A stretch of DNA of 44,126 nucleotides from assembly GCA_902774005.1 (NCBI GenBank), contig CACYGK010000007.1, positions 1-44,126 of the forward strand, written 5' to 3'. The DNA is from an uncultured Bacteroidales bacterium (GTDB lineage Bacteria > Bacteroidota > Bacteroidia > Bacteroidales > Bacteroidaceae). A model generated the notes under the pieces. That model was not told the origin of the DNA, searched no databases, and saw nothing but the letters and a program-made list of their open reading frames with translations. Positions 13,022-42,779 of this stretch are shown piece by piece. Every line of letters starts with the position of its first letter. The first letter of the stretch is position 1. A program made the translations under genes and the position numbers.

Positions 13022-13343
13022 GTTTCAAAGTTTCAAAGTTTCAAAGTTTCAGGCCATTTTATTTCTGTTCAGTGCCGTTTTTGTTTCTTGCGCCTGCCGT
13101 TTTTGTTTCTTGCGCCTGCCGTTTCAGTTTCTTGCGCCTGCCGTTTCAGTTTCTTGCGCCTGCCGTTTCAGTTTTTGTTCAGCACCGTTTCGTGAAATGA
13201 TGAGCGCCTTTATATAATATAATAAACTATATAGAATAAATAGTTATATCAATAAACCGTTAATCATTAAGAAGTATAATCTATTAAACACGCACGGGAG
13301 GGAAAAATGCAGGTGAAACTTTGAAACTTTGAAACTTTGAAAC
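13022..13343. repeat. Intergenic element 1: perfect 30-bp inverted repeat made of 8-bp tandem units
   Basis: Bases 13022-13051 (units of agtttcaa) and 13314-13343 (units of tgaaactt) are perfect reverse complements. The 262-base interior holds four and a half 22-bp tandem repeats (13074-13176), a 54-bp block shared with the element near 42.65 kb, and an AT-rich stretch from about 13209. The element fills the gap between the birA and ribD promoters almost exactly. No credible coding region is present: the open frames across it read only through repeats. Confidence 0.8.
13074..13176 (+). repeat. 22-bp tandem repeats (core TTTCTTGCGCCTGCC)
   Basis: Four full copies start at 13074, 13096, 13118 and 13140, with a partial fifth at 13162. 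Copies differ only in ttg or cag after the first gccgttt. There are no unique spacers, so this is a tandem repeat and not a CRISPR array. Confidence 0.85.
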
Positions 13344-13350
13344 AATTTGT

Positions 13351-13381
13351 TTTGTACATCGCCCGGTTTGCACTACATTTG
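13351..13381 (+). promoter_or_regulatory. Promoter of ribD
   Basis: TTTG at 13351-13354, a 19-base spacer and TACATTTG at 13374-13381 fit the Bacteroidetes primary sigma consensus. The start of transcription would be near 13386, only a few bases before the first ATG (13389). Confidence 0.8.
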
Positions 13382-13388
13382 CAAAGAA

Positions 13389-14300
13389 ATGATAACCTAT
13401 ATGACACCGAACGACGAATTATACATGCGACGTTGTATTCAGCTTGCCAAGAACGGCCGGCAGACTACCGAACCCAATCCGATGGTTGGGGCAGTAATCG
13501 TGCACGACGGAAGGATTATCGGCGAAGGATATCACATCCGTCCGGGCGGTCCCCATGCCGAGGTCAATGCTTTTGCCTCGGTACGGGCTGAAGACGAATA
13601 TCTGTTGCCGGAGAGTACGATATATGTGAGTCTGGAACCATGCAGTCATTGGGGTAAGACCCCACCATGTGCCGAACTGCTGATACGCAAGAAAATACGC
13701 CGTTGTGTCGTGGGGTGTCAGGACCCTTTTGCCAAAGTGCAGGGACGAGGCATACAGATGTTGCGTGATGCAGGTATTGAGGTGACGGTCGGTGTGCTTG
13801 AAGAGGAATGCCTGCAACTGAATTCCCATTTCGTCACATTTCATAGAAAAAAACGTCCCTACACTACGTTGAAGTGGGCACAATCAGCAAACGGATTTAT
13901 CGACGGAAAGATTTCCAATTATTATACCCAGGCTTTATGTCACAAACGACGTGCTGAGCATCAGGCTATCATGGTGGGTAACAGGACATGGAACATTGAC
14001 CATCCGCGTCTTGACGTACGTTGCTGGTATGGTGAGAATCCGAAAGTCTATGTAGCCCATGGGGGAGTGCCGGAAATTGTCGAACCGTCACTTCTGGTTG
14101 AGGGAGGTGCCACGTTGCACCAATATTATATAGATAATGTGTTGTGGGACGATTGTTTTGTGGAGATTGCCCCGTTTGATATTGAGGGCAAGGTGAAAGC
14201 TCCCACACTGAAGAATGCCGTGCTTGTGGAGGAAACAAAGATAGCGGAGCGGACTATCAGGCATTACCGACCGCTGTGGTCAGAATCAGAAATCAAGTGA
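13389..14300 (+). CDS. ribD: Bifunctional riboflavin biosynthesis deaminase/reductase
   Basis: Catalyses the deaminase and reductase steps after GTP cyclohydrolase II in riboflavin synthesis. The deaminase domain (about 1-150) has the zinc motifs HAEVNAF and [11 protein letters not shown]. The reductase domain follows ([18 protein letters not shown], then [12 protein letters not shown]). At about 303 residues it is short for RibD (usually 340-380), with the shortening in the reductase half. Starts at 13389 and 13401 ([12 protein letters not shown]) are both possible: the first would leave an almost leaderless mRNA. The 3' end overlaps the end of rnhB by 15 bases. Confidence 0.93.
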
Positions 14301-14888
14301 AAGCTGCTTAGGTGGTAACAGGGAGAACGTCATACGGTGGTATGGCGTCGTTCCGTGCTGTGCTATTCCTTCGCGGTGTTCCTTTGTCGGATAACCTGCG
14401 TTATGATCCCATCCGTAATAAGGGTATTGCTCGTGCAGTTCCTTCATGTAGTCATCACGATAGGTCTTGGCAAGAATCGAAGCTGCTGCAATAGCAAGAT
14501 ATTTGCCGTCACCCTTTACTATAGTCGTATGTGGAAGATTGTGATATTTTGTAAAACGGTTTCCGTCTATTATAAGTGCTTCGGGTCTCACTTTCAGATT
14601 GTCTATAGCCCTATGCATAGCCAGTATACTGGCACGTAGGATATTCAGTTCGTCAATTTCCTTTGCTGTCACTATTCCGAGAGCCCAACTCACGGCATCA
14701 CGTTCTATCTCATCACGCAGGGTATAGCGTTGACGAGCTGTCAGTTGTTTCGAGTCGTTCAATAATTCGTTGTGATAGTCATTGGGCAGGATGACCGCTG
14801 CGGCATAGACGCTTCCTGCAAGACATCCTCTGCCTGCTTCGTCGCATCCTGCTTCGATAAGCCCGTCGTAATAGTGAGGTAATAGCAT
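14286..14888 (-). CDS. rnhB: Ribonuclease HII
   Basis: Cleaves RNA in RNA-DNA hybrids and starts ribonucleotide excision. The 200-residue product has the family N-terminus [14 protein letters not shown] with catalytic Asp16 and Glu17, the central ALIIDGNRF aspartate and the [12 protein letters not shown] block. It lies 4 bases after xerD on the same strand and probably shares its transcript; its end overlaps ribD from the other strand. Confidence 0.95.
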
Positions 14889-14892
14889 CGGG

Positions 14893-15801
14893 TTAATGGT
14901 TTTTGTTTCTTGGATGATGTAGAAGTATCTCTTCGCGCAGATGAGAGGTGTCTATATGCATGTAAATCTGCGTTGTTGAAATGGACTCGTGTCCGAGCAT
15001 AGCCTGTATGGCACGCAGGTTGGCTCCGCCTTCGAGCAGACATGTTGCAAAACTGTGTCGTAGGGTATGGGGCGAAACGGTTTTCTGTATACCTGCCATT
15101 TCTACCAGGTCGCGAATGATATAGAACACCATTATGCGGGTGAGTTGCTGGCGTCGTGTAAAACTGACGAACACATAGTCTTCGTGTCCGGGTTTTATGT
15201 CGATATGACAGCGGTCGTCAAACCACAGTCTGAGTTCTTTGACGGCAACCTGACTGATGGGTACAAGTCTTTGTTTATTGCCCTTTCCTTCAACCTTTAT
15301 GAATCCTTCGTCGAGATACAGGTTCGACATTTTCAGATTACACAGTTCAGTCACTCGTAGTCCGCAACTAAACAAAGTCTCAATAATGGCCTTATTCCGG
15401 TGCCCCTCCCGCTCGCTAAGGTCGATGCACGCTTCCATTGCGTCAACTTCTTCAAGTGTGAGTACGTCGGGCAGATGTTTGGGTTTTTTAGGAAATTCCA
15501 ACAGTTCGGTAGGGTTTGCATCGATGATATCGGAGATTACGAGAAAGTGGTAGAAACTGCGCAGTCCTGACAGTATTCGTGAGAGCGAAGTGGACGAAAT
15601 ACCGATGTCGTGCATGATGGAGGCGAAGGTATGAAAGTCGCTGAGTTCGGGGTGCAGCATGTCTTTACCTTCGTCATCAAGAAAATGCAGAAACTTATCG
15701 AGGTCACGTTCGTATGCCTCGATTGTATTTTCTGAAAAATTCTTTTCTAACTTTAAATATTGATAATATCGGCGGAGTATTCGCTCATTTTCTTTGTTCA
15801 T
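14893..15801 (-). CDS. xerD: Tyrosine recombinase XerD-like
   Basis: Site-specific recombinase, most likely for resolving chromosome dimers. From the ATG at 15801 the product has 302 residues: an N-terminal SAM-like DNA-binding domain (about 8-95) and a catalytic domain with Arg149 (CGLRVTEL), a beta-hairpin lysine near 173-176, His245-x-x-Arg248, His271 and nucleophile Tyr280. Length and lack of mobile neighbours favour a housekeeping XerD over an integrase. The -7 box ends only about 5 bases before the ATG, suggesting a leaderless mRNA. The longer open frame starting at 15837 lies across the promoter and is not used here. Confidence 0.9.
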
Positions 15802-15823
15802 ATTGCAAAGGTACGTACATTTG
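15793..15823 (+). promoter_or_regulatory. Promoter of the DUF3108 gene
   Basis: TTTG at 15793-15796, 19 bases, TACATTTG at 15816-15823: a full consensus match, 23 bases before the ATG at 15846. It overlaps the xerD promoter on the other strand. Confidence 0.85.
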
Positions 15824-15838
15824 CATTGATTTAACAAC
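15806..15838 (-). promoter_or_regulatory. Promoter of xerD-rnhB
   Basis: Reading leftward: GTTG at 15838-15835, a 21-base spacer and TACCTTTG at 15813-15806. The expected transcription start falls at or within a base or two of the xerD ATG. Confidence 0.65.
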
Positions 15839-15845
15839 TGAAACT

Positions 15846-16658
15846 ATGAGAAATTTTCTTTTTAGCATATTGCTGCTGATGATATATCCGTGTGGGATGC
15901 TGGCTCAGTGCCCTGCTGAGAACAAGGCTTTTCAGGCAGGCGAGGAACTTGAATATACATTGTATTTCAATTGGAGTTTCATCTGGATAAAGTGTGGTTC
16001 GGCAACGTTCAAGACCCGTGCTGCATATTACCACGGACAGGATGCATACCGTTGCGACCTTCTGTTCAGGACTAATGAGAAGTTTGACAACTATTTCACA
16101 CTTCGTGACACTCTCGAGGGATATGTGACGAAAGATCTGGTACCTCTTTATTTCTATAAGGCTTCGCTCGAAGGTAAAGACCACCGTCTGGAGAAAGCCT
16201 GGTATTCCTATCCCGAGGGCAGATGTAACGTACGACTCGAATACACCAATCCTCATGGTGTGGTTTATAAGAATACGATCGAGAAAAGCGACTGTATGTA
16301 CGACATGATGAGTATGATGGCTTTTGCCCGTTCGTTCGACGGTAATAAGTATAAGAAAGGTGACCGTCTTTATTTCGACATGACATCGAGTGATGAGGTG
16401 TTCCGGCAGACGATGATTTATCGTGGAAAAGAGAATTTCAAGGCAAACGACGGAGTGACCTATCGCTGCATGGTGTTCTCGATGCTCGATTGGGAAGAGA
16501 AGAAAAAAGAGAAAGAGATACTGCGTTTCTATTTCTCCGATGACGATAACCACCTGCCGCTTCGTATCGACTTCAAACTGAAATTCGGTACTGCAAAGGC
16601 GTTCTATACAGGTGGAAAGAATCTGCGCAATCCGATGAATGCAATAGTAAAGAAATAA
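15846..16658 (+). CDS. Exported DUF3108 domain protein
   Basis: Function not known. The 270-residue product starts with a signal peptide (MRNFLFSILLLMIYPCGMLAQ) and then has the DUF3108 pattern: FQAGEELEYTLYFNW and IWIKCGSATFKT near the start, TNEKFDNYFTLRDTLEGYV, YKASLEGKDHRLEKAWYSYP and a terminal FYFSDDDNHLPLRIDFKLKFGTAKAF. The rest is predicted mostly beta, periplasmic or outer-membrane associated. The ATG follows a strong consensus promoter. It is transcribed away from xerD, without an operon partner before the idnO promoter. Confidence 0.85.
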   Translation: MRNFLFSILLLMIYPCGMLAQCPAENKAFQAGEELEYTLYFNWSFIWIKCGSATFKTRAAYYHGQDAYRCDLLFRTNEKFDNYFTLRDTLEGYVTKDLVPLYFYKASLEGKDHRLEKAWYSYPEGRCNVRLEYTNPHGVVYKNTIEKSDCMYDMMSMMAFARSFDGNKYKKGDRLYFDMTSSDEVFRQTMIYRGKENFKANDGVTYRCMVFSMLDWEEKKKEKEILRFYFSDDDNHLPLRIDFKLKFGTAKAFYTGGKNLRNPMNAIVKK

Positions 16659-16674
16659 AAAATGTCGATTTCTT

Positions 16675-16705
16675 CTTGTTCATAAACTAATTTGTTGTAC
16701 ATTTG
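16675..16705 (+). promoter_or_regulatory. Promoter of the idnO-like operon
   Basis: CTTG at 16675-16678, a 19-base spacer and TACATTTG at 16698-16705, 39 bases before the ATG at 16745. The longer open frame starting at 16703 begins inside the -7 box, which supports the later start. Confidence 0.75.
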
Positions 16706-16744
16706 CCCGTAGAAAGCAAAAAACCTATAATAAATGTAATAATT

Positions 16745-17548
16745 ATGGACTTGTCAAATTTCTCACTTGAAGGTAAGAACGCATGGATTACCGGTGCGTC
16801 TTACGGTATTGGTTTTAACATTGCCAAGGCTTTTGTTAAGGCTGGAATTAAGAACATCGTATTCAATGATATCAACGAGGCTGCCTTGCAGCGCGGACTC
16901 GACAACTACAAAGAAGCAGGTATCACAAATGTAAAGGGTTATGTATGTGACGTTACTGACGAGGTAGGCGTGAAGGCTCTTGTGGAGAAGATACATGCAG
17001 AAGTAGGTCAGATTGACATCCTCGTAAACAATGCCGGCATCATCAAGCGTATTCCTATGCATGAGATGAAACGTGCCGAGTTCCAGCAGGTAATCGATAT
17101 CGACCTCGTTGCCCCATACATCTGTTCTGCAGCCGTACTGCCTGAGATGATGGAACGTAAGGAAGGAAAGATTATCAATATCTGTTCAATGATGTCAGAA
17201 CTCGGACGCGAGACAGTAAGTGCTTACGCTGCCGCTAAGGGTGGTCTGAAGATGCTTACCCGTAACATCTGCTCTGAGTATGGTGGTTACAACATCCAGT
17301 GTAACGGTATCGGTCCGGGTTACATCGCTACTCCACAGACAGCTCCTCTGCGCGAGCGTCAGCCCGACGGAAGCCGTCACCCGTTCGATTCATTTATCTG
17401 TGCAAAGACTCCTGCCGGACGTTGGCTCGACCCGAGCGAACTCGGTGGTCCTGCTGTCTTCCTCGCTTCTAAGGCAAGCGACGCAGTCAACGGTCACGTG
17501 CTCTATGTAGATGGAGGTATTCTTGCATACATCGGTAAGCAACCATAA
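16745..17548 (+). CDS. SDR oxidoreductase, gluconate 5-dehydrogenase/KduD-like
   Basis: NAD(P)-dependent short-chain dehydrogenase of uronate or keto-gluconate metabolism. From the ATG at 16745 it has 267 residues: TGASYGIG at 16-23, NNAG at 95-98, catalytic Ser148, Tyr161 and Lys165, and the C-terminal INGHVLYVDGGILAYIGKQP-like end typical of the Bacteroidetes proteins annotated as gluconate 5-dehydrogenase. Members of this group often act as KduD, reducing the diketo product of pectin uronates. The CE8 gene two genes downstream fits that role, but no kduI or 2-keto-3-deoxygluconate kinase is in the window. The next gene follows in the same frame after one TAA. Confidence 0.85.
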   Translation: MDLSNFSLEGKNAWITGASYGIGFNIAKAFVKAGIKNIVFNDINEAALQRGLDNYKEAGITNVKGYVCDVTDEVGVKALVEKIHAEVGQIDILVNNAGIIKRIPMHEMKRAEFQQVIDIDLVAPYICSAAVLPEMMERKEGKIINICSMMSELGRETVSAYAAAKGGLKMLTRNICSEYGGYNIQCNGIGPGYIATPQTAPLRERQPDGSRHPFDSFICAKTPAGRWLDPSELGGPAVFLASKASDAVNGHVLYVDGGILAYIGKQP

Positions 17549-17551
17549 TAT

Positions 17552-19411
17552 TTGACAAACTATAGATTTTGGATAAATGCTCCGAGTAGTGCGGAGGGAG
17601 TGAAAGTCCGCATCTATCCATCGGTTGATGCTGTTGAACCAGAGAGGGAATTCTGGCTCAACAGCATTGCTAATGACTATTGGGAACGTGAAGAAGAAGG
17701 AGATTTCACAGGTAAGTTCTATACTTTTGAAGTCTATCCCGACAATAAATGGTTCGGACTTGGTGAAACTCCAGGCGTGTTTGCTACGGCAGTAGGGATA
17801 AACGGACGCCGTTGTGCCATCATCGATATGTCGTCAACCAATCCTGAGGGGTGGGATGCAGATCTTCATCCTCAGATTGAAAGTCCTTCCGACCTCGTAG
17901 TCTATGAACTCCATTACAGGGACTTCTCAGCCCATCCCGACAGCGGGTACGTGTACAAAGGGAAATATCTCTCCCTGACCGAACCTAAGGCACTCGACTA
18001 TCTGAAATCGTTGGGAGTAGGTGCAGTACAGATAATGCCTTCGTTTGATTTTGCCACAGTTGACGAACGCTATCCCGAATGGACGGAATATAACTGGGGC
18101 TACGACCCTATAAATTATAATGTGCCCGACGGTTCCTATTCTACCGATGCATGGAACCCTGCCACCCGTATCCGCGAATTCAAACAGATGGTTATGGCTC
18201 TCCACAGTGCCGGCATACGTGTCATCATGGATGTGGTCTATAACCATTGTTATAATATACCCGAAAGCAATTTCCAGCGTATCTATCCCGACTATTATTT
18301 CAGGAAATATACCGATGAGAACGGGAAAACTGTCTATTCTAACGGTTCGGGCTGCGGCAACGAGACGGCAAGTGAGCGTCCCCTCATGCGTCAGTTCATG
18401 ATTGAAAGTGTGTGGTACTGGGCAGCCGAATACCATATCGACGGGTTCCGTTTCGACCTCATGGGTGTTCACGACATGGAGACTATGCGTCAGATACGTT
18501 GTAAACTTGACGGGTTAGACCCTTCCATCACGATGTATGGCGAGGGATGGAGTGGGGGACCGTGTGCCCTTGATGAGAGTCTGCGTGCCACAAAGGAACA
18601 TGTTAAGGATATGCCCGGCATCGGTGCTTTCGGCAACGAGATGAGGGATGCCATACGCGGACCCTTCGATAACGACAGTCAGCCGGGCTGGCTTTCAGGT
18701 GCCGAGGGTTTCTCCGAAAGCATCAAGTTCGGCATAGTCGGAGCCATACCGCATCCAGACATCAACATGCAGGAGGTGAACTACTGCGACGAACCCTGGA
18801 CCATCGAACCCTGGCAACATGTCTCGTATGTCAGTTGTCACGATGACATGTGTCTCTACGACCGGCTCGTGGCTTCGTTCCCCGATGCCGATGCAAAGAC
18901 CATCGTACGCCTGGCGAAACTGGCTCTTACCCCCGTCCTGCTCAGTCAGGGCATCCCGTTCCTTTTTGCCGGTGAGGAAGTGCTCAGAAGCAAAAAGGGA
19001 GTGCGCAATGCATATAAGTCGCCCGACAGGGTAAACCAGATTGATTGGGAGAACCTTAACCGCTATCCTGATTATTTCCATTATGTCGAGGGACTCATCC
19101 ACATGCGTCGCAGGCACAAGGCTTTCCGTATGGGTAGTGCCGAAGAAGTGCGTAAAAACCTCCATTTCATCGATAATGAAGACAACCTGATTCTGTTCCG
19201 ACTGAACGGTGAGGCTGTTGGTGACGAATGGAAAACCATATACGTCATTATCAATCCGAACAGTCAACAGAAAGAATTTACCCTGCCCGAAGGACGGTAC
19301 AAGGTCGTATGCGAGAACGGAGCAGTAAACCCCGACGGATTTACAACCATACTTGGCGGAAAACTGACAATAGGAAACCGACAGACTTTAATATGCGTAG
19401 ATACTTTGTAA
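17552..19411 (+). CDS. GH13 alpha-glucan debranching enzyme, type I pullulanase-like
   Basis: Predicted to hydrolyse alpha-1,6 bonds in glycogen or starch fragments. The 619-residue product has an N-terminal beta domain (about 1-105) and a GH13 barrel with the pullulanase mark YNWGYDP at 180-186, DVVYNH at 227-232, nucleophile Asp302 (GFRFDLMG), acid/base Glu331 (YGEGW) and the later SCHDD. No signal peptide, so it is cytoplasmic. The best start is a TTG at 17552, three bases after the dehydrogenase stop; there is no ATG until about codon 93, which would remove the N-domain. The dehydrogenase and this gene are in the same frame, separated by one TAA. The 3' end overlaps the CE8 gene by 19 bases. 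Confidence 0.92.
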   Translation: MTNYRFWINAPSSAEGVKVRIYPSVDAVEPEREFWLNSIANDYWEREEEGDFTGKFYTFEVYPDNKWFGLGETPGVFATAVGINGRRCAIIDMSSTNPEGWDADLHPQIESPSDLVVYELHYRDFSAHPDSGYVYKGKYLSLTEPKALDYLKSLGVGAVQIMPSFDFATVDERYPEWTEYNWGYDPINYNVPDGSYSTDAWNPATRIREFKQMVMALHSAGIRVIMDVVYNHCYNIPESNFQRIYPDYYFRKYTDENGKTVYSNGSGCGNETASERPLMRQFMIESVWYWAAEYHIDGFRFDLMGVHDMETMRQIRCKLDGLDPSITMYGEGWSGGPCALDESLRATKEHVKDMPGIGAFGNEMRDAIRGPFDNDSQPGWLSGAEGFSESIKFGIVGAIPHPDINMQEVNYCDEPWTIEPWQHVSYVSCHDDMCLYDRLVASFPDADAKTIVRLAKLALTPVLLSQGIPFLFAGEEVLRSKKGVRNAYKSPDRVNQIDWENLNRYPDYFHYVEGLIHMRRRHKAFRMGSAEEVRKNLHFIDNEDNLILFRLNGEAVGDEWKTIYVIINPNSQQKEFTLPEGRYKVVCENGAVNPDGFTTILGGKLTIGNRQTLICVDTL

Positions 19412-20427
19412 TAGGATTTATGGGCTTATTGGGCTTATTGGACGAAAGTAAAATATTGGCTCAAAAACCCGATTTCATCGTGCCTGACAATGGCAATTTC
19501 GTATCAGCCATTCAGACTGCGAATACCCGTGCCGATTTTTCGCGGCGATATACCATACTGGTGCGTCGGGGTACTCATTTCAGTGAGGGTACTCAGGAAC
19601 TGATAAGTACGAGAGTGAAAACTGCCGATGGTGCTGATTCCACCATCTTCTTCCCTTCGCCTATAGTCAAACTGGTTGCCCCTCGTGTTACCATTATGGG
19701 TGAAGATATGGATGCTACCATAGTCGAGAACCGTCCCGTTTACGAAGGCATCGGTATTACTAGTACACTTTTCGTCGATGGAGCCGACAGCACCATCATT
19801 AAGGATATAACCCTTTTTTGCAATTTCCAGAACGAGGCTATGGCTTTTGCCAACCGTTCTGTAGCTCTGAGGGAAAGCCGTTGCAAGGGTAATTATCTGA
19901 AGAATGTCCGTCTGCTCAGTACCCAGGACACATATTATACCAATGGGGGCGGTGACACGACACTTGACAGTTGCGACATACACGGCACCGTCGATTTCAT
20001 CTGTGGCGGAGGCAGCGTGCGTTTCAATTCCTGCACTCTCTACCTTGAACCGCGAGGCAGGAAGGGTTCGAGAGATGTTATCTGTGCACCTGCTACAAAC
20101 GTCGATGAATTGGGATATATTTTCAAAAACTGCACCATCGTGGGTTCGCCTGAACAGGACGGGCGCTATCATCTTGCCCGTCCCTGGCGCAACCAGCCCA
20201 CATGTGTATTTCTGAACACACGTATGATGCTGCTTCCCTCTCCCGACGGCTATCGCGAGATGCACGGCACCCTGCCCCGACTCTTTGCCGAATACGGCAG
20301 TGTGGATAAGGACGGCAATCCTGTCGATTGCTCGCAGCGGAAGACTACATTTAAGAATAAAGCCGGTGAAACCGTCAAAATCGGCTATTCCCCAGTACTT
20401 AGCGAAACAGAAATGAAAAAATACTGA
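19393..20427 (+). CDS. Pectin methylesterase (CE8)
   Basis: Removes methyl esters from homogalacturonan. The ATG at 19393 is chosen because it gives a signal peptide; the frame upstream is inside the GH13 gene. In 344 residues the CE8 right-handed helix motifs are all visible: Gln178-Asp179 (STQDTYY), catalytic Asp201 (GTVDFICGG) and Arg263/Trp265 (LARPW). The hydrophobic core of the signal peptide (GLLGLL) is coded by a 9-bp tandem repeat. The start overlaps the GH13 stop by 19 bases and the next gene starts 6 bases after the stop, so translation is probably coupled. The exported enzyme is paired with DUF4861. Confidence 0.93.
   Translation: MRRYFVIGFMGLLGLLDESKILAQKPDFIVPDNGNFVSAIQTANTRADFSRRYTILVRRGTHFSEGTQELISTRVKTADGADSTIFFPSPIVKLVAPRVTIMGEDMDATIVENRPVYEGIGITSTLFVDGADSTIIKDITLFCNFQNEAMAFANRSVALRESRCKGNYLKNVRLLSTQDTYYTNGGGDTTLDSCDIHGTVDFICGGGSVRFNSCTLYLEPRGRKGSRDVICAPATNVDELGYIFKNCTIVGSPEQDGRYHLARPWRNQPTCVFLNTRMMLLPSPDGYREMHGTLPRLFAEYGSVDKDGNPVDCSQRKTTFKNKAGETVKIGYSPVLSETEMKKY
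19418..19443 (+). repeat. 9-bp tandem repeat inside the CE8 signal peptide
   Basis: Two full copies of the ttattgggc unit (the second ending gac), preceded by one copy missing a base. In frame they code for Gly-Leu-Leu repeats that form the hydrophobic part of the signal peptide. The same unit occurs at 5466-5483. Confidence 0.6.
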
Positions 20428-20433
20428 AACACA

Positions 20434-21678: not shown

Positions 21679-21760
21679 TATATCCATGTGGAAAAATCAG
21701 CATAAAATTACTGCTGAGAGATAAAATTTAGCCTAAAGCGTAATTTTTCTGTTAAAAAAA

Positions 21761-21792
21761 TTGGAGAGTTACACTTTTTCTTTGCACATTTG
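21761..21792 (+). promoter_or_regulatory. Promoter and long leader of the large secreted protein
   Basis: TTGG at 21761-21764, a 20-base spacer and CACATTTG at 21785-21792, a near match to TAnnTTTG. It would leave a leader of about 150 bases before the ATG at 21949. The rest of the gap from 21679 is AT-rich; I see no terminator for the DUF4861 gene. Confidence 0.55.
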
Positions 21793-21948
21793 CTGCGATT
21801 ATGATTGTTTGGCTTAGTTTCGCATAGCGTGCTACATGCCGAATACACATTATACATTATTTATAATATAATCAACTCGGCATTCGTTGTCGAAAAGAGA
21901 ATAACTAACCATTATTGTTTAACTAATCTTTTAAAATCAACCAAAGTT

Positions 21949-33363: not shown

Positions 33364-33443
33364 TTGCATAAGTACTACATTTCTTCCGATTTCATTCTGT
33401 TTGGCAGTGTGAATCTGGTCTGTAAAACACATTTATGTGTTTT

Positions 33444-33477
33444 TTTGTGTGTAATATAATCTTTATGCGTAAATTTG
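33444..33477 (+). promoter_or_regulatory. Promoter of the large CotH-family gene
   Basis: TTTG at 33444-33447, 22 bases, TAAATTTG at 33470-33477, about 28 bases before the first ATG. Confidence 0.65.
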
Positions 33478-33505
33478 ACCCGATAACAGCTAATTAAAAT
33501 GCAAA

Positions 33506-36500
33506 ATGACTATGAAAACAAGTTACTCTCTTCCGATATCCCTGAACAGGATGGTGGTATGTCTTGTACTTATGCTGCTTCAGGTGCCGATGCTTATGGC
33601 AGGCGATTGGGTGGACATAACGGACAGTTATGTCAAGAATCCCCGTTATGACGGAAACGATTACAGCTACTGGGATGGTACGCCTCTGAGCGGGGCGAAT
33701 GCCAGGGAGAATGCTGAACACTATTGGAAGACCTACAACACGTATCAGCGTGTGGAGGGACTGGTGCCGGGTAAGTACCGTGTCAGTCTGACTGCATTCT
33801 ACCGTATGGGTGATTCGGGGAACGACTATAATCTGTTCTCCAGTGGTGATTATGAGAATTATCAGTACTCAAGACTTTATGCCAGTTCGTCGGTGGAAAG
33901 TTATATGGACACTCCGATAGCATGTTTGTCGAGTGCTGCGCAGTCGAAGTCGCTTGGCGGAGGAACCAGTGTGGTGGGCGAAGGACTGTATGTCCCGAAC
34001 AATATGGAGGCTGCCGGTGCATGGTTTGCAGCCGGCTTCTATTACAACGTGCTGGAGTGTGAAGTGGGTGAAGACGGTGTTCTGATCATCGGAATTAAGA
34101 AGGATACGAATCTGGGGTCGGACTGGACATGTCTGGACAACTGGAAACTGGAATACTATGAGGACGAGGCGACTGTACGTGTCGAGTCGCTGAAGTTGAA
34201 CAAGTCGTATTACGCAATAACGGTGGACAAGTCGTATATGATGGGTAAGACCATTCTGCCCGATAATGCTACCAACAAGAAACTGGTATGGACTTCATCG
34301 GACGAGAGTGTCGCTACGGTCAGTGGTACTACCGGAAAGATAAAGGGTATGAGTCCGGGTAAGGCTGTCATCACGGCAAAGACTACTGACCTGTCGAACC
34401 TGTCAGCAAGTTGTCTGATAACGGTATATAGCAAGACCGATGAAGAAGTGGCATGGATTGACGTAACGGATGACTTTGTCATCAATCCGCGTTTCGAAAA
34501 TAATGACCTGACTACCGGTTGGGAAGGTACTCCGTTCAGCGCAGCAAATCCAAAGGAGAATGCAGAGCACTACAATAAGGATTATTTCACTTACCAGTGG
34601 ATTGACGGACTGGTACCGGGCAAGTACCGTCTCAGTCTGGATGCATTCTACCGCATGGGTACTTCCAATAACGATTACCAGCTGTATCAAACCGGAGAGT
34701 ATGAAGAATCCCTGCACGGCAAACTCGTAGCTTCGTCGTCGGTGGGCCAGTATTCCGGATCAATTAAACCGCTCTCATCGGGTCTGTCGAAGACGAACTA
34801 TGGCGGTGGTACCTACTCTGTATATGTTCCAGAGGAAGAAGCGTTCTATTATGCTCCAAACAACATGTACGCAGCTGATGCGTGGTTCAATGCAGGATAT
34901 TACCAGAACTCGCTCGAATGTGAGGTGGGTGAGGACGGACGACTCCAAATCGGCATTTACAAAGACCAGACGATAGGTGAAGACTGGACGTGTCTGGACA
35001 ACTGGAAACTGGAATACTACGGACCGGTGAAGCTCGTGACCGACATCACTCTGTCGCAGACAGATGCTAAACTTGTGAGGAGCGAAACGCTGCAACTTGA
35101 TGCTACCGTACTGCCTAAGGATGCTATATACAGAAAGCTCGTTTGGACTTCGTCGGACGAGACTGTGGCTACGGTTGACCGTAACGGACTGGTGACGGCT
35201 GTGGGTATGGGTACTGCTGAGATTACCGCTGCTGCAAGTGACTGTTCGGGTGTGAGTGCTACATGTCATGTCATGGTCATCAATGCCGAGATTAAGCCCG
35301 GCGACCTGGTGATAAACGAGATTATGGTCCACAACGTGGATGTGTATCTCGACCCTTCATATAATTTCGGTCCGTGGGTGGAACTCTACAATGCAGCTGA
35401 TGTGACTCTCACGCTTGGCGGACTCTATGTCACGGACGATCCTGCCAACCTGACGAAGAATAAGCTGATAGAGGATTACGGAGTAGTGCCGGCAAACGGT
35501 TACGCCATTCTGAACTTCGACCACTTCGAGGTATGGAAGAAGGCAAGCTACCGTCAGATTAACGATGACCTGAATGCCAAGGGTGGTACGATCATCCTGT
35601 CGGACGGAAAAACGATACTGGCTCAGCAGGACTATCCTGAGGCTATCAGTCGTATGTCATGGGCTCGCAAGTCGTTGGACAGCGACGATTGGGGCTATAC
35701 CGGCGAACCGACTCCGGGTGAGAGCAATGCTACCAGTAAGTTTGCTACGGAACAACTGGCTGCTCCTGTGGTTGACACTCCTTCCAAACTGTTCGATTTG
35801 CCGTTCAATATACAGGTGACTATCCCTGCCGGTACAACCCTGCTCTATACTACCGACGGTACGGCTCCTACACTAACGAACGGATGGCAGTCGACAGACG
35901 GAAAGATTTACGTGGACTATTCAGGATGTTACCGTTTCCGTCTGTTCCAGAACGGCAAACTACCAAGCCAGGTTGTTACACGTTCGTATATAAAGCAAGA
36001 AAACGATGAACCGTTCCCAATCATCTCGCTCGTTACCGACTGGGATAATATATGGGGTGATTATGGAGTGTTCCTCAAGAGCAGTTACGGACGTCCCGGC
36101 AACGGACAGGCAGAGTCGTGCAACTGGAATATGGACTGGGACCGTCCGGTACACTTCGACTATATTACTACCGAAGGTGAATGTGTAGTCAGTCAGGAGT
36201 GTGACTTATCGATGTGTGGAGGGTGGAGTCGTGCGTTCAATCCTCATGCTTTCAAACTGAAGGCAAAGAAGACCTACGACATGCAGAACTCGTTCGATTA
36301 TCAGTTCTTTGAGAATAAGTCGTTCCTGAAGCATAAGACCCTCCAAATACGTAACGGAGGAAACGACACCGGTTGCCGTATCAAGGATGGTGCTATCCAA
36401 GGCATAATAGAACGTAGCGGTATTTATGCCGAGTGCCAGTCGTGGAAACCTGTTCATGTGTATATCAACGGATGGGAATATGCCGTACTCAATATGCGCG

Positions 36501-38761
36501 AACCTAACAATAAGGACTATGCTTACAGCAACTACGGAATAGACTCCGACCTCATGGATCAGTTTGAGATTTCGCCAGACTCCGGTTATGTGCAGATGCG
36601 CGGTACGGAAGAGAGTTTCCTCCAGTGGTACGAACTGGCTAAGAATGCAGCCGATGAGGATACATACGAGCAGATATGCAAACTCGTTGATATCGACAAT
36701 TATATAAATTACATGGCTATCGAACTCTATATTGGTAACTGGGACTGGCCACAGAACAACGTGAAGGGATTCCGCAGTCTGGAGGACGGCAAGTTCCGTT
36801 TCGTCATCTTTGACCTTGATGGAGCACTCTCGACTTCTGCACCGTTAAATGATTTCTTCAGCAAACAGAACTACACTTTCGACAACCTTCATGGTTACAA
36901 CTATGCTACCAACGAGAGCATAGAGGGTACACGTCTGAAGAAGGAGATAAAGTTCGTCACTATCTTCAAGAACATGATTCAGAACGAGGAGTTCTTCAAG
37001 AAGTTTGTCGATGCCTACTGTCTTGTAGCCGGTTCGGTATTCACTCCAGAATTGACTTACGAAGTGGTTTTGGATCGTGCCAACGAACTCTCTCAGGGTG
37101 ATTATGTCAATCCTTGGAGCACGGCAAGCAATGTTTACTATAATTTGTCAGGTCGTCAGACAGGTCTTATCAACCACCTTCAGTCATACTTCAAACTTAA
37201 CAGTGGTGACCGTTTCTCAGCTTCGCTCTCAAGCAATATCGAAGAGGGACGCATAATGCTGAACGACCAGGAAGTGCCGACGGGTAAGTTCAACGGAGAA
37301 CTCTTCCTGCCTGTAACCCTCCGTGCCGAAGCTCCTGCCGGTTATAAGTTTGCAGGATGGGCGCAGGTGAAGACCAGTGGCGTTCAGACTATCTTCGAAA
37401 AAGGCTCAGAATGGAAGTTCTACGACAAGGGCAGTCTTGATGATATAAGCTGGGAAGCGATAACTTATTCCGATGCAGCTTGGAATTCGGGTGCCACTCC
37501 TATAGGTTATGACTATAACGGTCAGCATCCAGAACTTGTTACAGTTACTCAGGGCTACCTGCCTACTTATTATCTGCGCAAGTCGTTTAACCTCAGCAGT
37601 GTGGATGCCAACGGCACTTACCAACTCGACTGGGTAGCCGACGATGGATTCGTGGTTTATGTAAACGGTAAGGAAGCCGGACGTTATAATATGCCGAGCG
37701 GAACGACCAGCTACAGCACGTTTGCCTCGACCTATGCCAACAATAATCCGGATAGCGGTACAATGCTTATTGATGCTTCGCTCCTGCGTACTGGCAACAA
37801 CCTCATAGCTGTCGAACTCCATAACAACGCATCCAACTCGACCGATATCTACTGGAATGCTGCCTTCGGTGTGCAGTCCGACAATCCTATTCCTCAGATA
37901 GTATCCTTAGACCCTGAATACACCTTTACGAACAACGACGGTGTGGAGATGACGGCTATGTGGGATGCCCTGCCAGAGGAGGAACTGATTGCCAACTCGG
38001 CTACTCCTGTGAAGATTAACGAGGTGAGTGCTGCGAACTCGGTATATATCAATGAGTACTGCAAGAAGAACGACTGGATTGAGCTTTACAACACTACCGA
38101 CAAGCCTATCGATGTGGCTGGAATGTATATCTCCGACAAGTTGAAGAAACCTCTGAAGTTCCAGATTCCTGCGGCATCGGAGGTGGATGCTACCTATTCG
38201 ACCGTTATTCCGGCTCACGGATATCTCGTAATCTGGGCTGACCAACTTGTTTCCGACACTCAGATACATACCGGTTTCAAACTCGGCAACGAGGATGATG
38301 AGGTGGTTATGCTTACAGCAGCCGACGAGTCATGGGCTGATACGCTTTCATATAAGATGCACAACGGCGACCAGTCGGTAGGTCTCTATCCTGACGGAGG
38401 CAAACAGGCTTACATCATGGACCTCACGACTATAGGTCAGTCGAACAAACTTAATTCCTATGCCGTTGCCTTCGAACAGTTCCGTCCGGAACCTACTCCA
38501 CCATCTGAGGTCAAGGAGATTACTTCCGACGGCGGACTCCGTGTCAAGTACGAGAATGGTGGCATAAGCATCACTACTGATTCTCCGATGACAGTAAGCA
38601 TTGAAATCGTGAATGCTGCAGGACAGAAGGTATATGAAACGTCTACCGACGTATATGGTTCGAAGAGCGTAGGAATCGACGGACTGTCGGTTGGTATTTA
38701 CCTTGCCCGTGTCACAAGCGATAACGATAACCGTTGTCAGATTAAGTTCCTGAAGAAGTAA
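33506..38761 (+). CDS. Very large secreted CotH-family protein with lamin-tail and Ig-like domains
   Basis: Predicted surface protein of 1751 residues; the start may be the third codon (33512). Signal peptide to about residue 33. Then a module (about 35-220, WVDITDSYVKNP) and an Ig-like domain, and a second copy of the same pair (about 317-590, WIDVTDDFVINP). Next come a lamin-tail domain (about 595-720, LVINEIMVHN), a chitobiase C-terminal-like domain (about 735-820, LLYTTDGTAPT), the CotH kinase-like region (about 825-1270, with GNWDWPQNNVKGFR and IFDLDGALS), a jelly-roll module (about 1290-1460), a second lamin-tail domain (about 1495-1660, VKINEVSAANS) and a type IX-like sorting domain (SVEIVNAAGQKVYE, then GIYLARV). 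CotH proteins can be protein kinases or scaffolds; activity is unproven here. Confidence 0.88.
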   Translation: MTMKTSYSLPISLNRMVVCLVLMLLQVPMLMAGDWVDITDSYVKNPRYDGNDYSYWDGTPLSGANARENAEHYWKTYNTYQRVEGLVPGKYRVSLTAFYRMGDSGNDYNLFSSGDYENYQYSRLYASSSVESYMDTPIACLSSAAQSKSLGGGTSVVGEGLYVPNNMEAAGAWFAAGFYYNVLECEVGEDGVLIIGIKKDTNLGSDWTCLDNWKLEYYEDEATVRVESLKLNKSYYAITVDKSYMMGKTILPDNATNKKLVWTSSDESVATVSGTTGKIKGMSPGKAVITAKTTDLSNLSASCLITVYSKTDEEVAWIDVTDDFVINPRFENNDLTTGWEGTPFSAANPKENAEHYNKDYFTYQWIDGLVPGKYRLSLDAFYRMGTSNNDYQLYQTGEYEESLHGKLVASSSVGQYSGSIKPLSSGLSKTNYGGGTYSVYVPEEEAFYYAPNNMYAADAWFNAGYYQNSLECEVGEDGRLQIGIYKDQTIGEDWTCLDNWKLEYYGPVKLVTDITLSQTDAKLVRSETLQLDATVLPKDAIYRKLVWTSSDETVATVDRNGLVTAVGMGTAEITAAASDCSGVSATCHVMVINAEIKPGDLVINEIMVHNVDVYLDPSYNFGPWVELYNAADVTLTLGGLYVTDDPANLTKNKLIEDYGVVPANGYAILNFDHFEVWKKASYRQINDDLNAKGGTIILSDGKTILAQQDYPEAISRMSWARKSLDSDDWGYTGEPTPGESNATSKFATEQLAAPVVDTPSKLFDLPFNIQVTIPAGTTLLYTTDGTAPTLTNGWQSTDGKIYVDYSGCYRFRLFQNGKLPSQVVTRSYIKQENDEPFPIISLVTDWDNIWGDYGVFLKSSYGRPGNGQAESCNWNMDWDRPVHFDYITTEGECVVSQECDLSMCGGWSRAFNPHAFKLKAKKTYDMQNSFDYQFFENKSFLKHKTLQIRNGGNDTGCRIKDGAIQGIIERSGIYAECQSWKPVHVYINGWEYAVLNMREPNNKDYAYSNYGIDSDLMDQFEISPDSGYVQMRGTEESFLQWYELAKNAADEDTYEQICKLVDIDNYINYMAIELYIGNWDWPQNNVKGFRSLEDGKFRFVIFDLDGALSTSAPLNDFFSKQNYTFDNLHGYNYATNESIEGTRLKKEIKFVTIFKNMIQNEEFFKKFVDAYCLVAGSVFTPELTYEVVLDRANELSQGDYVNPWSTASNVYYNLSGRQTGLINHLQSYFKLNSGDRFSASLSSNIEEGRIMLNDQEVPTGKFNGELFLPVTLRAEAPAGYKFAGWAQVKTSGVQTIFEKGSEWKFYDKGSLDDISWEAITYSDAAWNSGATPIGYDYNGQHPELVTVTQGYLPTYYLRKSFNLSSVDANGTYQLDWVADDGFVVYVNGKEAGRYNMPSGTTSYSTFASTYANNNPDSGTMLIDASLLRTGNNLIAVELHNNASNSTDIYWNAAFGVQSDNPIPQIVSLDPEYTFTNNDGVEMTAMWDALPEEELIANSATPVKINEVSAANSVYINEYCKKNDWIELYNTTDKPIDVAGMYISDKLKKPLKFQIPAASEVDATYSTVIPAHGYLVIWADQLVSDTQIHTGFKLGNEDDEVVMLTAADESWADTLSYKMHNGDQSVGLYPDGGKQAYIMDLTTIGQSNKLNSYAVAFEQFRPEPTPPSEVKEITSDGGLRVKYENGGISITTDSPMTVSIEIVNAAGQKVYETSTDVYGSKSVGIDGLSVGIYLARVTSDNDNRCQIKFLKK

Positions 38762-38773
38762 TAATCAGATAGC

Positions 38774-38815
38774 AAAAAAAAAGTGCGAAACCCCGATGGC
38801 TTCGCACTTTTTTTT
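38774..38815. terminator. Bidirectional terminator between the two CotH-family genes
   Basis: A-run, gtgcgaa, a short loop with one internal mismatch, ttcgcac and a T-run. It separates the converging genes; the T-run runs into the stop codon of the left-going gene. Confidence 0.9.
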
Positions 38816-40709
38816 AATTAACATTGAATGTAACCTTTACGTTTACGGCTTTGTTGCCTGATCGGTATTGCATGGTTACGATGTGCTTATCGCCCCATTG
38901 GCAGTTCTGTGGATGGCATCCAAAGGCCCAATTGTACATGCTGTTGCTCTCAATATATACGTGTCCGTTGCCCCACGAATTGGTATTGCCTGAGGCATCA
39001 AACCAGGCTCCATAGGTCTTTGCAGCTGTGTTGTTGCCCTCTGAGCCGTCGGCATTGAGGGGTACGAGACTGGATGGGTTGTTTCCAAGCAGATCTGCCA
39101 CTTCTTGCTGACTGATGCTGATTTGGGAAGTTTGCGAATAACCTTTGGAGAACGATACTGACTGAGTTTTTTCAATCGTACCCACCACTTCAATTTCTGT
39201 AGGCACTATCTCGTCGTCGCCTGGAGGATAGTTTGCTACCACATCGTCAATATAATTCTTGCGGTTTCTTATCCATTGCTCCATTTTCTGGGTTTCTTCG
39301 GCAGGGGTAAAAGTATTGGTGATATACTTGCCTGTTCTCCAGTCGTAAGTGTAAGTTGCAAGTGGCCAGCGTTCGGAGTCTCTGTCGTAAGCTCCTTCCT
39401 CGGTCAGGGCATCAGAATATTTCATGGTCTCTGCCCAGTCCTCAGCCACTACTGCATCTGTATGCTTCAACCATGCTTCCTTATATTGCTGCACGAAAGT
39501 GGCATTGCCGAACAAGGAGAGCCAGAACTTGTTTATCCTGTATGCTGCGTTTGTACCGTTCACAGGGTCGGTTCCGTAGATAAGTTCGCGATAGTCCGTG
39601 AAGAACGTATGTCCCGTGTACATATCGCCCCAATCGAAGTCGTAACCTGCGTCCCAGTCCCAGATGGGTCCGAAGGTGTACTTTCCGTCTTTGTCCTTGA
39701 ACATGTAGATGCTTCGTGGTGCGTCGATTTCTACGTTATAGAGAAATTCGTGTATTTGCAGGATACCGATGAACGACTGTATGTCCATCAGTTCGTTTAC
39801 TTTCTCGTAATCACGCGATTTTATCGCCTTTTCGAGTATTGCAAATTCTGCCTTTATCGAGTCTATCTGTTCCTGGGTGTAGCCTTCAGGTTCCTTTATG
39901 CACATAGGTAGTGAGAATACCTGCGACCAGAAGTTGTCTCCGTCATCGGGGGAGAGATCAGGTCCGTCGTCTTGGTCGAATGACATAAGCAAACCTCCGG
40001 TTTCATCGATGTCTATACGGTTTTTATTTATCTCAATCTTCTCAGTAAGCTGATAAAGTCCGATGAATTCGTTGTTAAGGAATACCTCCACGTAGCGTGA
40101 GTGGTTGGTGTAGGGCATACCCATGGAATGTGCCGTCTCGAATGCAAAGGTATTCATGAGGTCGGTAACGTCGCGATAATTGGCAAGCAGGTTCCAGTCT
40201 TTCGCTTTCTCCAGTCCGAGGAGTTTCGATTTGGAGTCGAGTTTGAACTTGTACGGTTTCTTATCGTACCAGTCCCAGCTGGAGTTTCCACGTCCTCGTA
40301 TGCGTCCCGTACCGCAATAGTTGGAATATTCACCCTTTCCATCGATGGTTATGACACAGTTCAGCCATACTTCCTTGTCCTCAATGTACTCTCCGCCTTC
40401 TGTGTAGATGTTCATGGTGAAGGGACGGTACTTGTTGTGTCCCTTCTCGGAGTCGAGCAGGTCGGGCGAGAAACTGATGCTGTCCAGGTCGCTCATATAG
40501 AATGGAAATGTTATGGCTCCATCCCCCTTTGGTATGCTGATAAAGACAGATTCGTCCTGATGGCTGAAGTCGCTCAATACGCCATCCGAAAGACCAATTG
40601 TGACGTTGCGATCCAGTCCCTCGTAGGTCTGGTGCATATTCATCCAGTTCTGTGCTGAAGCCCACGTTGATACGGTAAATACAGCTAATGAGAGTAAAAT
40701 TCGTTGCAT
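38814..40709 (-). CDS. Secreted CotH kinase family protein with DUF4859 domain
   Basis: Predicted exported protein of 631 residues. Signal peptide (MQRILLSLAVFTVSTWASAQ), a short N-domain, then the CotH domain (about 100-480): RIRGRGNSSW, KPYKFKLD, AKDWNLLANYRD, the RYVEVFLNNEFIGLYQLTEKIE strand pair, and the acidic FGPIWDWDAGYDFDWG motif. A C-terminal DUF4859-like domain (about 505-631) starts TIEKTQSVSFSKGYSQ and includes the YGAWFD and WAFGCHPQNCQWGDKH segments. Compared with the opposite gene, the CotH motifs here are closer to the classical ones. A -7 box (TATCTTTG leftward, near 40729-40736) lies about 20 bases before the ATG. Confidence 0.92.
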   Translation of the reverse strand: MQRILLSLAVFTVSTWASAQNWMNMHQTYEGLDRNVTIGLSDGVLSDFSHQDESVFISIPKGDGAITFPFYMSDLDSISFSPDLLDSEKGHNKYRPFTMNIYTEGGEYIEDKEVWLNCVITIDGKGEYSNYCGTGRIRGRGNSSWDWYDKKPYKFKLDSKSKLLGLEKAKDWNLLANYRDVTDLMNTFAFETAHSMGMPYTNHSRYVEVFLNNEFIGLYQLTEKIEINKNRIDIDETGGLLMSFDQDDGPDLSPDDGDNFWSQVFSLPMCIKEPEGYTQEQIDSIKAEFAILEKAIKSRDYEKVNELMDIQSFIGILQIHEFLYNVEIDAPRSIYMFKDKDGKYTFGPIWDWDAGYDFDWGDMYTGHTFFTDYRELIYGTDPVNGTNAAYRINKFWLSLFGNATFVQQYKEAWLKHTDAVVAEDWAETMKYSDALTEEGAYDRDSERWPLATYTYDWRTGKYITNTFTPAEETQKMEQWIRNRKNYIDDVVANYPPGDDEIVPTEIEVVGTIEKTQSVSFSKGYSQTSQISISQQEVADLLGNNPSSLVPLNADGSEGNNTAAKTYGAWFDASGNTNSWGNGHVYIESNSMYNWAFGCHPQNCQWGDKHIVTMQYRSGNKAVNVKVTFNVN

Positions 40710-40728
40710 TTTAGATGATAATTTTGTG

Positions 40729-40736
40729 CAAAGATA
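40729..40736 (-). promoter_or_regulatory. -7 promoter element for the CotH/DUF4859 gene
   Basis: TATCTTTG when read leftward, about 20 bases before the ATG; no clear TTTG partner upstream. Confidence 0.5.
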
Positions 40737-40790
40737 GGTCTTTCTAGTATAAGATGTACGTGCGAGGGAGTTTTTTTACAAAAGAAAAAA

Positions 40791-40817
40791 GAAGATGCAT
40801 CACGAAAATGCACCTTC
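40791..40817 (-). terminator. Terminator of gdhA
   Basis: Stem gaagatgcat/atgcaccttc (one mismatch or G-T pair) with a 7-base loop; read leftward it is followed by a T-rich stretch. It lies 30 bases after the gdhA stop. Confidence 0.85.
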
Positions 40818-40846
40818 TTCCAAATTTATTATCTAAAAGGTATTCT

Positions 40847-42187
40847 TTATACGATTCCCTGTGCCATCATTGCCTTAGCCACTTTGATGAAGCCGGCAAC
40901 GTTTGCACCCTTAACGTAGTTAACGTATCCGTCTGGTTCAGTACCGTACTTAACACAGTTCTCGTGGATGTTCTCCATGATCCAGAGGAGCTTAGCGTCA
41001 ACTTCTTCAGCTGTCCAAGAGAGACGCTCTGAGTTCTGGCTCATTTCGAGACCTGATACAGATACACCACCTGCGTTAGAAGCCTTACCTGGAGAGTAGA
41101 GCAGTTTAGCATCCTGGAACACCTTGATTGCTGCTGGAGTAGTAGGCATGTTAGCACCTTCTGCTACTGCGATTACACCATTTGCTACGAGAGCCTTAGC
41201 TGCCTCTTCGTTGATTTCGTTCTGAGTAGCACATGGCAGAGCAATCTGAGCGCCCTTCTCGAACCAAGGCTTAGCACCTTCTACATACTTAGCTGTAGGA
41301 TACTTGTCAACATATTCCTTGATACGTCCACGATATACGTTCTTCAGTTCCATGATGTAGTCGAGCTTAGCGCGATCGATACCGTCTGGATCGTAGATGT
41401 AACCGTTTGAGTCAGACATAGTCATTGGGATACCACCGAGCTGGAGAACCTTCTCTGCTGCGTACTGAGCAACGTTACCAGCACCTGAGATGAGAACCTT
41501 CTTACCCTCGATTGTGTCGCCCTTAGTCTTGAGCATAGCACGGAGGAAGTAAACAGTTCCGTAACCTGTAGCCTCAGGACGGATGAGTGAACCACCGAAT
41601 TCGAGACCCTTACCTGTGAGCACACCGCTGTATTCGCGAGTCAGCTTCTTGTACATACCGAACATGTAGCCTACTTCACGACCACCAACACCTATATCGC
41701 CTGCTGGTACGTCAACGTCTGGACCGATGTGACGAGTGAGTTCGAGCATGAATGCCTGGCAGAAACGCATTACCTCAGCGTTGCTCTTTCCACGTGGAGA
41801 GAAGTCAGAACCACCCTTGCCACCACCCATTGGGAGAGTAGTCAGAGAGTTCTTGAAAGTCTGCTCGAAAGCGAGGAACTTCAGAATACCGAGGTTTACA
41901 GAGCTGTGGAAACGGATACCGCCCTTGTACGGACCGATAGCGTTGTTGTGCTGGATACGGTAACCCATGTTAGTCTGGATATTACCCTTGTCGTCCATCC
42001 ATGTAACGCGGAACTGGTAAACGCGATCTGGAATACAGAGACGTTCAATCAGATTTACCTTGTCAAATTCAGGGTGCTTGTTGTACTCCTCTTCGATAGT
42101 ACCGAGCACTTCTTCTACTGCCTGATGATATTCAGGTTCGTTGGGGAAACGACGCTTAAGGTCTTCCAATACTTTTTTTGCATCCAT
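40847..42187 (-). CDS. gdhA: Glutamate dehydrogenase (NADP-specific type)
   Basis: Makes glutamate from 2-oxoglutarate and ammonium, the main ammonium entry route in many Prevotella. The 446-residue length and sequence fit the hexameric bacterial enzyme: YRIQHNNAIGPYKGGIRFH, the catalytic lysine block PMGGGKGGSDF, PAGDIGVGGREVGYMFG, and the Rossmann motif SGAGNVAQYAAEK. Codon use is strongly biased, as expected for an abundant enzyme. Promoter and terminator are both visible, so it is transcribed alone. Confidence 0.97.
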   Translation of the reverse strand: MDAKKVLEDLKRRFPNEPEYHQAVEEVLGTIEEEYNKHPEFDKVNLIERLCIPDRVYQFRVTWMDDKGNIQTNMGYRIQHNNAIGPYKGGIRFHSSVNLGILKFLAFEQTFKNSLTTLPMGGGKGGSDFSPRGKSNAEVMRFCQAFMLELTRHIGPDVDVPAGDIGVGGREVGYMFGMYKKLTREYSGVLTGKGLEFGGSLIRPEATGYGTVYFLRAMLKTKGDTIEGKKVLISGAGNVAQYAAEKVLQLGGIPMTMSDSNGYIYDPDGIDRAKLDYIMELKNVYRGRIKEYVDKYPTAKYVEGAKPWFEKGAQIALPCATQNEINEEAAKALVANGVIAVAEGANMPTTPAAIKVFQDAKLLYSPGKASNAGGVSVSGLEMSQNSERLSWTAEEVDAKLLWIMENIHENCVKYGTEPDGYVNYVKGANVAGFIKVAKAMMAQGIV

Positions 42188-42250
42188 TTTTGTTGATGTT
42201 TTAAGTTATTAAATAATGAATTAGTTATTACTTTTCTATCATTTTCGCTG

Positions 42251-42282
42251 CAAAGTTATATCATTCTGAATAAACCAACAAA
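42251..42282 (-). promoter_or_regulatory. Promoter of gdhA
   Basis: Read leftward: TTTG (42282-42279), a 20-base spacer and TAACTTTG (42258-42251). This leaves a leader of about 60 bases. Confidence 0.8.
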
Positions 42283-42511
42283 ACATTTGTGTAAAAAATA
42301 TAGTAAAAGCACGAAAAAAGTTACTTTAATTTACAAAACACACATTTTCTTTGACTTTTTTCTGATTTTTGCAAACTTTTCAAGCATTTTGATAGCAAGA
42401 CGAAAGACGGTCTTCCCTTCCTGTGTCCTGCTTCGTTTATCCCAAGTCTAAGGTTTCTATATGTTACGACTTTGCGTCGTTTTTGGGGTGCGCCTGCCAC
42501 GCTGAAATTCC

Positions 42512-42563
42512 AAGCGCTTAGAATTTTAGTTTCAAGCGCTTGGAATTTAATTTCTAAGCGCTT
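42512..42563 (+). repeat. Three AAGCGCTT palindromic repeats, 22-bp period
   Basis: The 8-bp palindrome AAGCGCTT occurs at 42512, 42534 and 42556, each followed by (a/g)gaattt-like AT bases. The core TTTCaaGCGCtT resembles TTTCttGCGCcT of the 22-bp repeats at 13074-13176. Confidence 0.75.
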
Positions 42564-42779
42564 AGAATTTCAACGCCCCTTCGTCACCACTTTATTCAGA
42601 CTTTGCTACCATGACTTTGTTGCAGTAATTCGCCATTCGAGTTGTGATAATGGCGCTGAACACGTCACGAAGCGGCGCTGAACAGACGCGAACGCGGCAG
42701 GCGCATGATTTACGGAACCAAGAATTCATGGAACTTTAGGGCTATGGACTAGAGTATTGTCCTGAGAAAGTTGACAGAT

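Follow-up and report, generated by a model that had tools for sequence, protein, structure and literature searches.

Dispersed palindromes near the 3' ends of genes are well known from the REP/BIME repeats of enterobacteria. Our comparison with other known systems draws on portions of three papers (PMC4596501, PMC5771137, and PMC10969869). According to these portions, BrickBuilt of Porphyromonas gingivalis is an intergenic, non-coding miniature inverted-repeat transposable element (MITE), species restricted and present 19 times in ATCC 33277; it has a variable number of 23-nt tandem units between a leader and a tail, 12-bp terminal inverted repeats (TIRs) resembling those of insertion sequences (IS), and reported target duplications, and its tandem repeats are themselves predicted to form stem-loops (PMC4596501). 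BOX and SPRITE of Streptococcus pneumoniae are described as short, bunched intergenic repeats, SPRITE being terminator-like (PMC10969869). No account of such elements in Prevotella was found in the open-access literature, as judged by titles and the starts of abstracts. Here, we describe two intergenic elements, A and B, in a 44,126-nt stretch of DNA from an uncultured Bacteroidales bacterium (GCA_902774005.1, CACYGK010000007.1; the whole stretch analyzed is called the window). Both contain a 54-bp block, which is probably part of a 22-bp minisatellite. In this reading, the minisatellite belongs to composite elements of MITE-like, non-coding type that became dispersed among the genes of this species and of a sister species (G058), accompanied by a second dispersed module of palindromes that often lies just past stop codons.

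The original prediction had counted by hand 41 of 54 ungapped identities between 13155-13208 (plus strand) and the reverse complement of 42652-42705, and this count is exact. In 200 first-order Markov resamples drawn from the intergenic regions 13016-13390 and 42189-43232, ungapped 54-mer matches averaged 29.5 identities and reached 32 at most. When 13100-13260 was used as a query against its own genome, the partner at 42652-42705 was recovered at an E value of 6.9e-6, and better matches were obtained at C35:23455-23588 (85%) and C5:47915-48004 (84%); C7 also matched. Tandem Repeats Finder reports a period of 22 at 13073-13174 (4.6 copies), at 42652-42698 (2.1 copies), and, with a different palindromic unit, at 42506-42570 (3.0 copies). 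The block comprises about 2.5 tandem units of 22 bp, each starting with TGCGCCTGCCG or TGTTCAGCGCCG. The described alternation of conserved blocks with variable stretches of constant length is explained by the 22-bp tandem period. The proposal of a dispersed intergenic family present in both orientations is borne out by further copies in the same genome and in G058. No match to the coding region of a known mobile element was seen; the search covered viral contigs for the patterns, plasmids for element A, and phages for element B, and no insertion-sequence library was included. The parts of the two elements are as follows.

13021-13051, plus strand: left terminal inverted array of element A, (AGTTTCAA)x3.9
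13073-13174, plus strand: 22-bp minisatellite of element A, 4.6 units with core TGCGCCTGCCG, 97% matches, no indels
13155-13208, plus strand: first copy of the 54-bp block, found by its ungapped match to the second copy
13209-13313, plus strand: AT-rich tail of element A, largely common to six aligned copies
13314-13343, plus strand: right terminal inverted array of element A, complement of the left arm
42489-42499, plus strand: end box of the palindrome module, TGCGCCTGCCA, one base off the core of the 22-bp repeat
42506-42570, plus strand: palindrome module, with three AAGCGCTT palindromes at 22-bp spacing (42512-42563)
42652-42705, minus strand: second copy of the 54-bp block, found by genome search and ungapped match
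42782-42808, plus strand: left inverted array of element B, (GTTGCAGTT)x3
42870-42917, plus strand: AT-rich palindromic core of element B, flanked by its two inverted arrays
42948-42974, plus strand: right inverted array of element B, (AACTGCAAC)x3

Element A (13021-13343) is bounded by perfect inverted ends made of GTTTCAAA arrays, with 30-nt arms (13022-13051 and 13314-13343) that are perfectly complementary, and encloses a leader, the 22-bp units, and the AT-rich tail; folded as single-stranded DNA, it beats 100 of 100 shuffles, mainly by virtue of the arms. Six copies (element A, two others in its genome, on C35 and C5, and three in G058) share this modular organization of terminal array, leader, units, and AT-rich tail and can be aligned over stretches of 281 to 336 bases, the number of units differing among them. 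Terminal inverted repeats, full or partial, are found in all six, so that two traits of MITEs, terminal inverted repeats and multiple dispersed short copies (six, in two genomes), are present. Element A lies between divergent genes encoding a biotin/lipoate ligase-family protein (BPL) and a RibD-type deaminase; the orthologous ligase-RibD intergenic regions of G058 and G007 are short and without the element, and that of G043 contains another short-unit repeat in its place. At the end of the ligase gene (12182-12228) there is also a six-base repeat, GTTAAC/GTTATC, and similar stretches occur in many genomes of the genus (query about 25-79).

Element B (42489-42974) combines a TGCGCCTGCC box, three AAGCGCTT palindromes, a minus-strand copy of the block, and an AT-rich core within inverted GTTGCAGTT arrays. 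Related inverted-array elements are located on C11 (two, both adjoined by 22-bp units), on C34, and in genome G056. Arm units vary among elements (GTTTCAAA, GTTGCAGTT, or a GTTACAG variant), and the two arms within one element agree. Synteny with G058 and G007 on the glutamate dehydrogenase side stops near 42400, just before element B; by its look, the gene past this break in the two relatives would encode an ABC-F ATPase. Near the contig end, 43481-43566 forms a perfect two-copy tandem duplication of 43 bp.

The genome holds 17 exact TGCGCCTGCCG sites and 65 sites with at most one mismatch, compared with 24 for the reversed control, and two such cores 22 bp apart (at most two mismatches) occur 12 times. 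None of the 40 other genomes searched (24 of the genus, 16 of other families) yielded this double, and the block family is accordingly narrow. Among the sequences fetched, 13 non-identical 54-mers match either copy of the block at 34 or more positions, overlapping registers being counted. Seven contigs of this draft genome (C9, C18, C21, C34, C49, C60, and C63) end near these repeats, and because contigs often end there, copies may be miscounted.

The palindrome module constitutes a dispersed family of its own. Three AAGCGCTT cores in series (at most two mismatches) are found at 21 places in the genome, 20 of them exact, and at 8 loci in G058; C34:23626 and C60:21497, both at contig ends, are identical over 99 bp and may be a single locus, which gives 20 to 21 loci. 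The triple was seen in none of 43 other genomes of the genus, and the control pattern gave 0. At loci L040-L069, which were fetched solely by the TGCGCCTGCCG search and without any constraint on spacing, the cores are 22 bp apart in 14/14 non-redundant cases, and all 11 runs consist of three cores. For 5 of the 21 modules an orthologous element exists in G058, and across these five pairs the cores show 0/120 substitutions, compared with 14/140 in spacers, 18/236 in arms, and 163/1597 in flanks. In the spacer preceding the middle core, the same three bases are changed in three pairs and an overlapping set in a fourth, a pattern that points to concerted evolution or to a change made jointly with a factor. 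The C8 module has no counterpart at the orthologous site of G058, which is occupied by a simple hairpin (fold z score, -3.8).

Elements are biased toward gene 3' ends. Among 42 elements (48 examined, 6 set aside owing to an overlapping open reading frame [ORF] call), 36 have a 3' end as the closest gene end, and in 30 of the 42 the distance is within 100 bp, the 3'-end share expected from 26 intergenic gaps being 0.40 to 0.42. A further set of 20 loci, 2 of which were set aside, gave a 3' end as the nearest in 15/18, with 13/13 in G148; one counted locus, G148 C1:903454, sits in both sets. The module of the window is 324 bp from the nearest called gene end, which is a 5' end, and element A separates divergent genes, so neither follows the bias.

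Comparable arrays occur in other lineages. The AAGCGCTT triple (at most one mismatch) is found in 10/399 genomes of the family, one of which (G169) plainly carries a different repeat: locus L125 (G169:C64) is a 22-bp repeat of another sequence, with a unit of about GAAGCGCCTTGGGGGATTAACT in about four to five copies. Exact triples were found in 19 named stretches, 14 of which come from Prevotellaceae, Bacteroidaceae, or Bacteroidales assemblies (several of these, judged by contig positions, are G058 and G289 again); the other five, from Massilibacteroides, an alpha proteobacterium, Clostridiales, Hormoscilla, and Imperialibacter, were excluded because they look like other tandem repeats that hold the core. 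The reversed pattern TTCGCGAA, intended as a control, turned up in 10 other genomes, with up to 31 matches in a renewed search that covered only those 10 and counted overlapping windows. In G148, 12/14 TTCGCGAA arrays (loci L288-L300) follow genes of 142 to 183 codons, at a distance of 40 to 41, 99, or 121 bp from the stop codon; a similar protein from G241 (L132), the one protein scanned, matches HU-HIG (PF18291), and two G148 loci show its C terminus. In G129 (loci L302-L306), TTCGCGAA arrays stand within an inverted pair of about TATTTGCCG/CGGCAAATA, resembling element ends. What the TTCGCGAA arrays have in common with the AAGCGCTT module is the architecture alone, and homology is not implied.

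The elements are composed of inverted terminal arrays of 8- to 9-bp units, a leader, a variable count of 22-bp units, and an AT-rich tail, and, if the MITE-like reading is correct, would have been moved by a transposase supplied in trans, the 22-bp units expanding and contracting through slippage or recombination. The second module, in which a TGCGCCTGCC-type end box accompanies three AAGCGCTT palindromes at 22-bp spacing, would act at transcript 3' ends, either as a hairpin or as a roadblock formed by a bound protein. Several results count against this picture. Neither a transposase nor an autonomous parent was identified, no search for a parent by the element ends having been made. A target-site duplication is unreadable when element A is set against the G058 and G007 regions because the flanks are too diverged, and just one of five site comparisons provided a usable empty site, the other four lacking a usable alignment. 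When all loci are pooled, a set biased to a spacing of 22, the spacing is 22 in 66/72 (the other six are 44 in three cases, 30, 46, and 70), and CCTGCCK boxes are 22 bp apart in 13/20. Owing to the shared spacer change, the 14 spacer substitutions cannot be taken as independent events, and their contrast with the unchanged cores carries less weight than the raw numbers suggest. Placement relies on longest-ORF gene calls, and four orthologous pairs, like the probable duplicate C34/C60, enter twice into the 42 elements; with each counted once, the figure becomes 31/37. In G129, a 3' end is nearest in just 2/5 arrays, and 5/6 arrays have no called gene end within 150 bp; because these arrays deviate, the 3'-end rule is not universal. 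With respect to the hairpin, two-sided changes occur in 4/19 base pairs of the module compared with 1.6 in shuffles (4/500 reach this value), the other four measures fall within the shuffles, and the three local hairpins of the module exceed the shuffles in no measure of compensatory change. No hairpin of the intrinsic-terminator type (G+C rich and with a T run after it) was detected at 42100-43300, where shuffles average 0.8; the scan was limited to this region of the window.

The alternative that holds up best concerns function and is compatible with a MITE-like origin: the 22-bp units would be phased sites for a putative DNA-binding protein, with a dimer on each palindrome and neighboring dimers about two helical turns apart, serving as a roadblock, an insulator, or a nucleoid anchor. 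The invariant spacing in the 14 unconstrained cases, the 120 unchanged core sites amid changing spacers, the recurrence of AAGCGCTT with different spacers in other genera, and the little or no compensatory signal as RNA all favor it. However, there is no candidate protein, homology of the arrays across genera is not shown, the core differs by genome (AAGCGCTT or TTCGCGAA), and the bias is toward gene 3' ends and not promoters; we regard this account as possible but doubtful. A broader version appears unlikely, namely, that a single rule, by which about three to five palindromic cores follow one another at 22-bp intervals, defines one family of sequence-specific, protein-bound barriers at gene 3' ends, in which lineages would have switched the core between AAGCGCTT and TTCGCGAA together with its reader protein while copies across a genome change in concert.

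The original prediction also proposed that the block looks like a structured RNA or a protein-binding site. A structured RNA family with the 54-bp block as its conserved part would account for conserved blocks at fixed spacing, and folding gives it some support in the surroundings: the minus strand of 13060-13200 has a z score of -2.06 (4/200 shuffles are as good; the plus strand gives +2.2), and the neighboring palindrome module of the window folds as a long hairpin with z scores of -5.6 and -5.9. The block itself, however, folds much as its shuffles do (42645-42710; z scores, +0.2 and +0.5). The suggested covariance check, made on 11 copies (13 rows minus two overlapping registers), yielded four predicted pairs, no compensatory change, and an unfavorable covariation term, and at the gathering score Rfam returned only tRNA in the window and no family in element A or B, with permissive matches far below threshold. 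With so little coming from folding, covariation, and Rfam, we set the RNA interpretation of the block aside as very improbable. In an alignment of 22/29 modules, the long hairpin has 97.4% of its cells paired, compared with 97.5% in shuffles; the strand count of G-U versus A-C was left unused because the strand had been chosen by that very count.

Dispersed intergenic palindromes with a gene 3'-end bias are also what REP/BIME-type repeats mobilized by a RAYT (TnpA-REP) transposase would leave, but among 12 array-bearing genomes Y1_Tnp (PF01797) is above the cut-off in 5, below it in the genome studied here, and absent from 6, including G148, and the match in G058 is on contig C4, which yielded no array; this makes this origin highly unlikely. 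The weakest proposal, an iteron-like replication origin or plasmid remnant, recalls the 22-bp direct repeats beside an AT-rich stretch in element A, which might be likened to iterons with their AT-rich region, but several dispersed copies, the BPL and RibD gene neighbors, and the lack of any plasmid match leave it next to no credence. By BLAST, element A had no match among plasmids and element B none among phages. Candidates for a viral origin were likewise rejected: the one viral stretch with a AAGCGCTT triple is another tandem repeat, and the one with a TGCGCCTGCCG double is G+C rich and has no 22-bp array beyond its two boxes; the TTCGCGAA triple occurs in no stretch of the viral collection.

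With these elements, Bacteroidales gain an element family that combines inverted end arrays with a 22-bp minisatellite, the comparable families found in the literature being BrickBuilt and related P. gingivalis elements. A phased set of palindromes at gene ends could be a terminator-like or roadblock device, and the spacer change common to orthologous loci would allow concerted evolution among dispersed repeats of bacteria to be tested. The palindromes described here differ from REP/BIME repeats in being tandem, 22 bp apart, and without RAYT association. Compared by description and not by sequence, they differ from BOX and SPRITE, as presented in the portions consulted, in their 22-bp phasing and palindromic cores (PMC10969869). 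The likeness to BrickBuilt, again as described in part of the source, is greater, since both are intergenic, non-coding, dispersed, and species restricted, with a variable number of tandem units in a leader-tandem repeats-tail layout and with terminal inverted repeats (PMC4596501). Unlike BrickBuilt, with its 23-nt unit and TIRs of GAGACCTTTGCA/TGCAAAGGTCTC, the elements described here have a period of 22 and end in GTTTCAAA or GTTGCAGTT arrays; their stem arises from terminal arrays of 8- to 9-bp units, and a separate three-core palindrome module is present. Target duplications and IS-like TIRs are reported for BrickBuilt, whereas neither a duplication nor an IS match is shown here. Because unit length and ends differ, the elements are not members of BrickBuilt. 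Minisatellite-bearing MITEs such as BrickBuilt are nevertheless the closest known kind, and the elements represent a narrow variant of it, together with an unexplained 22-bp palindrome rule that is also seen, with the core TTCGCGAA, in other genera.

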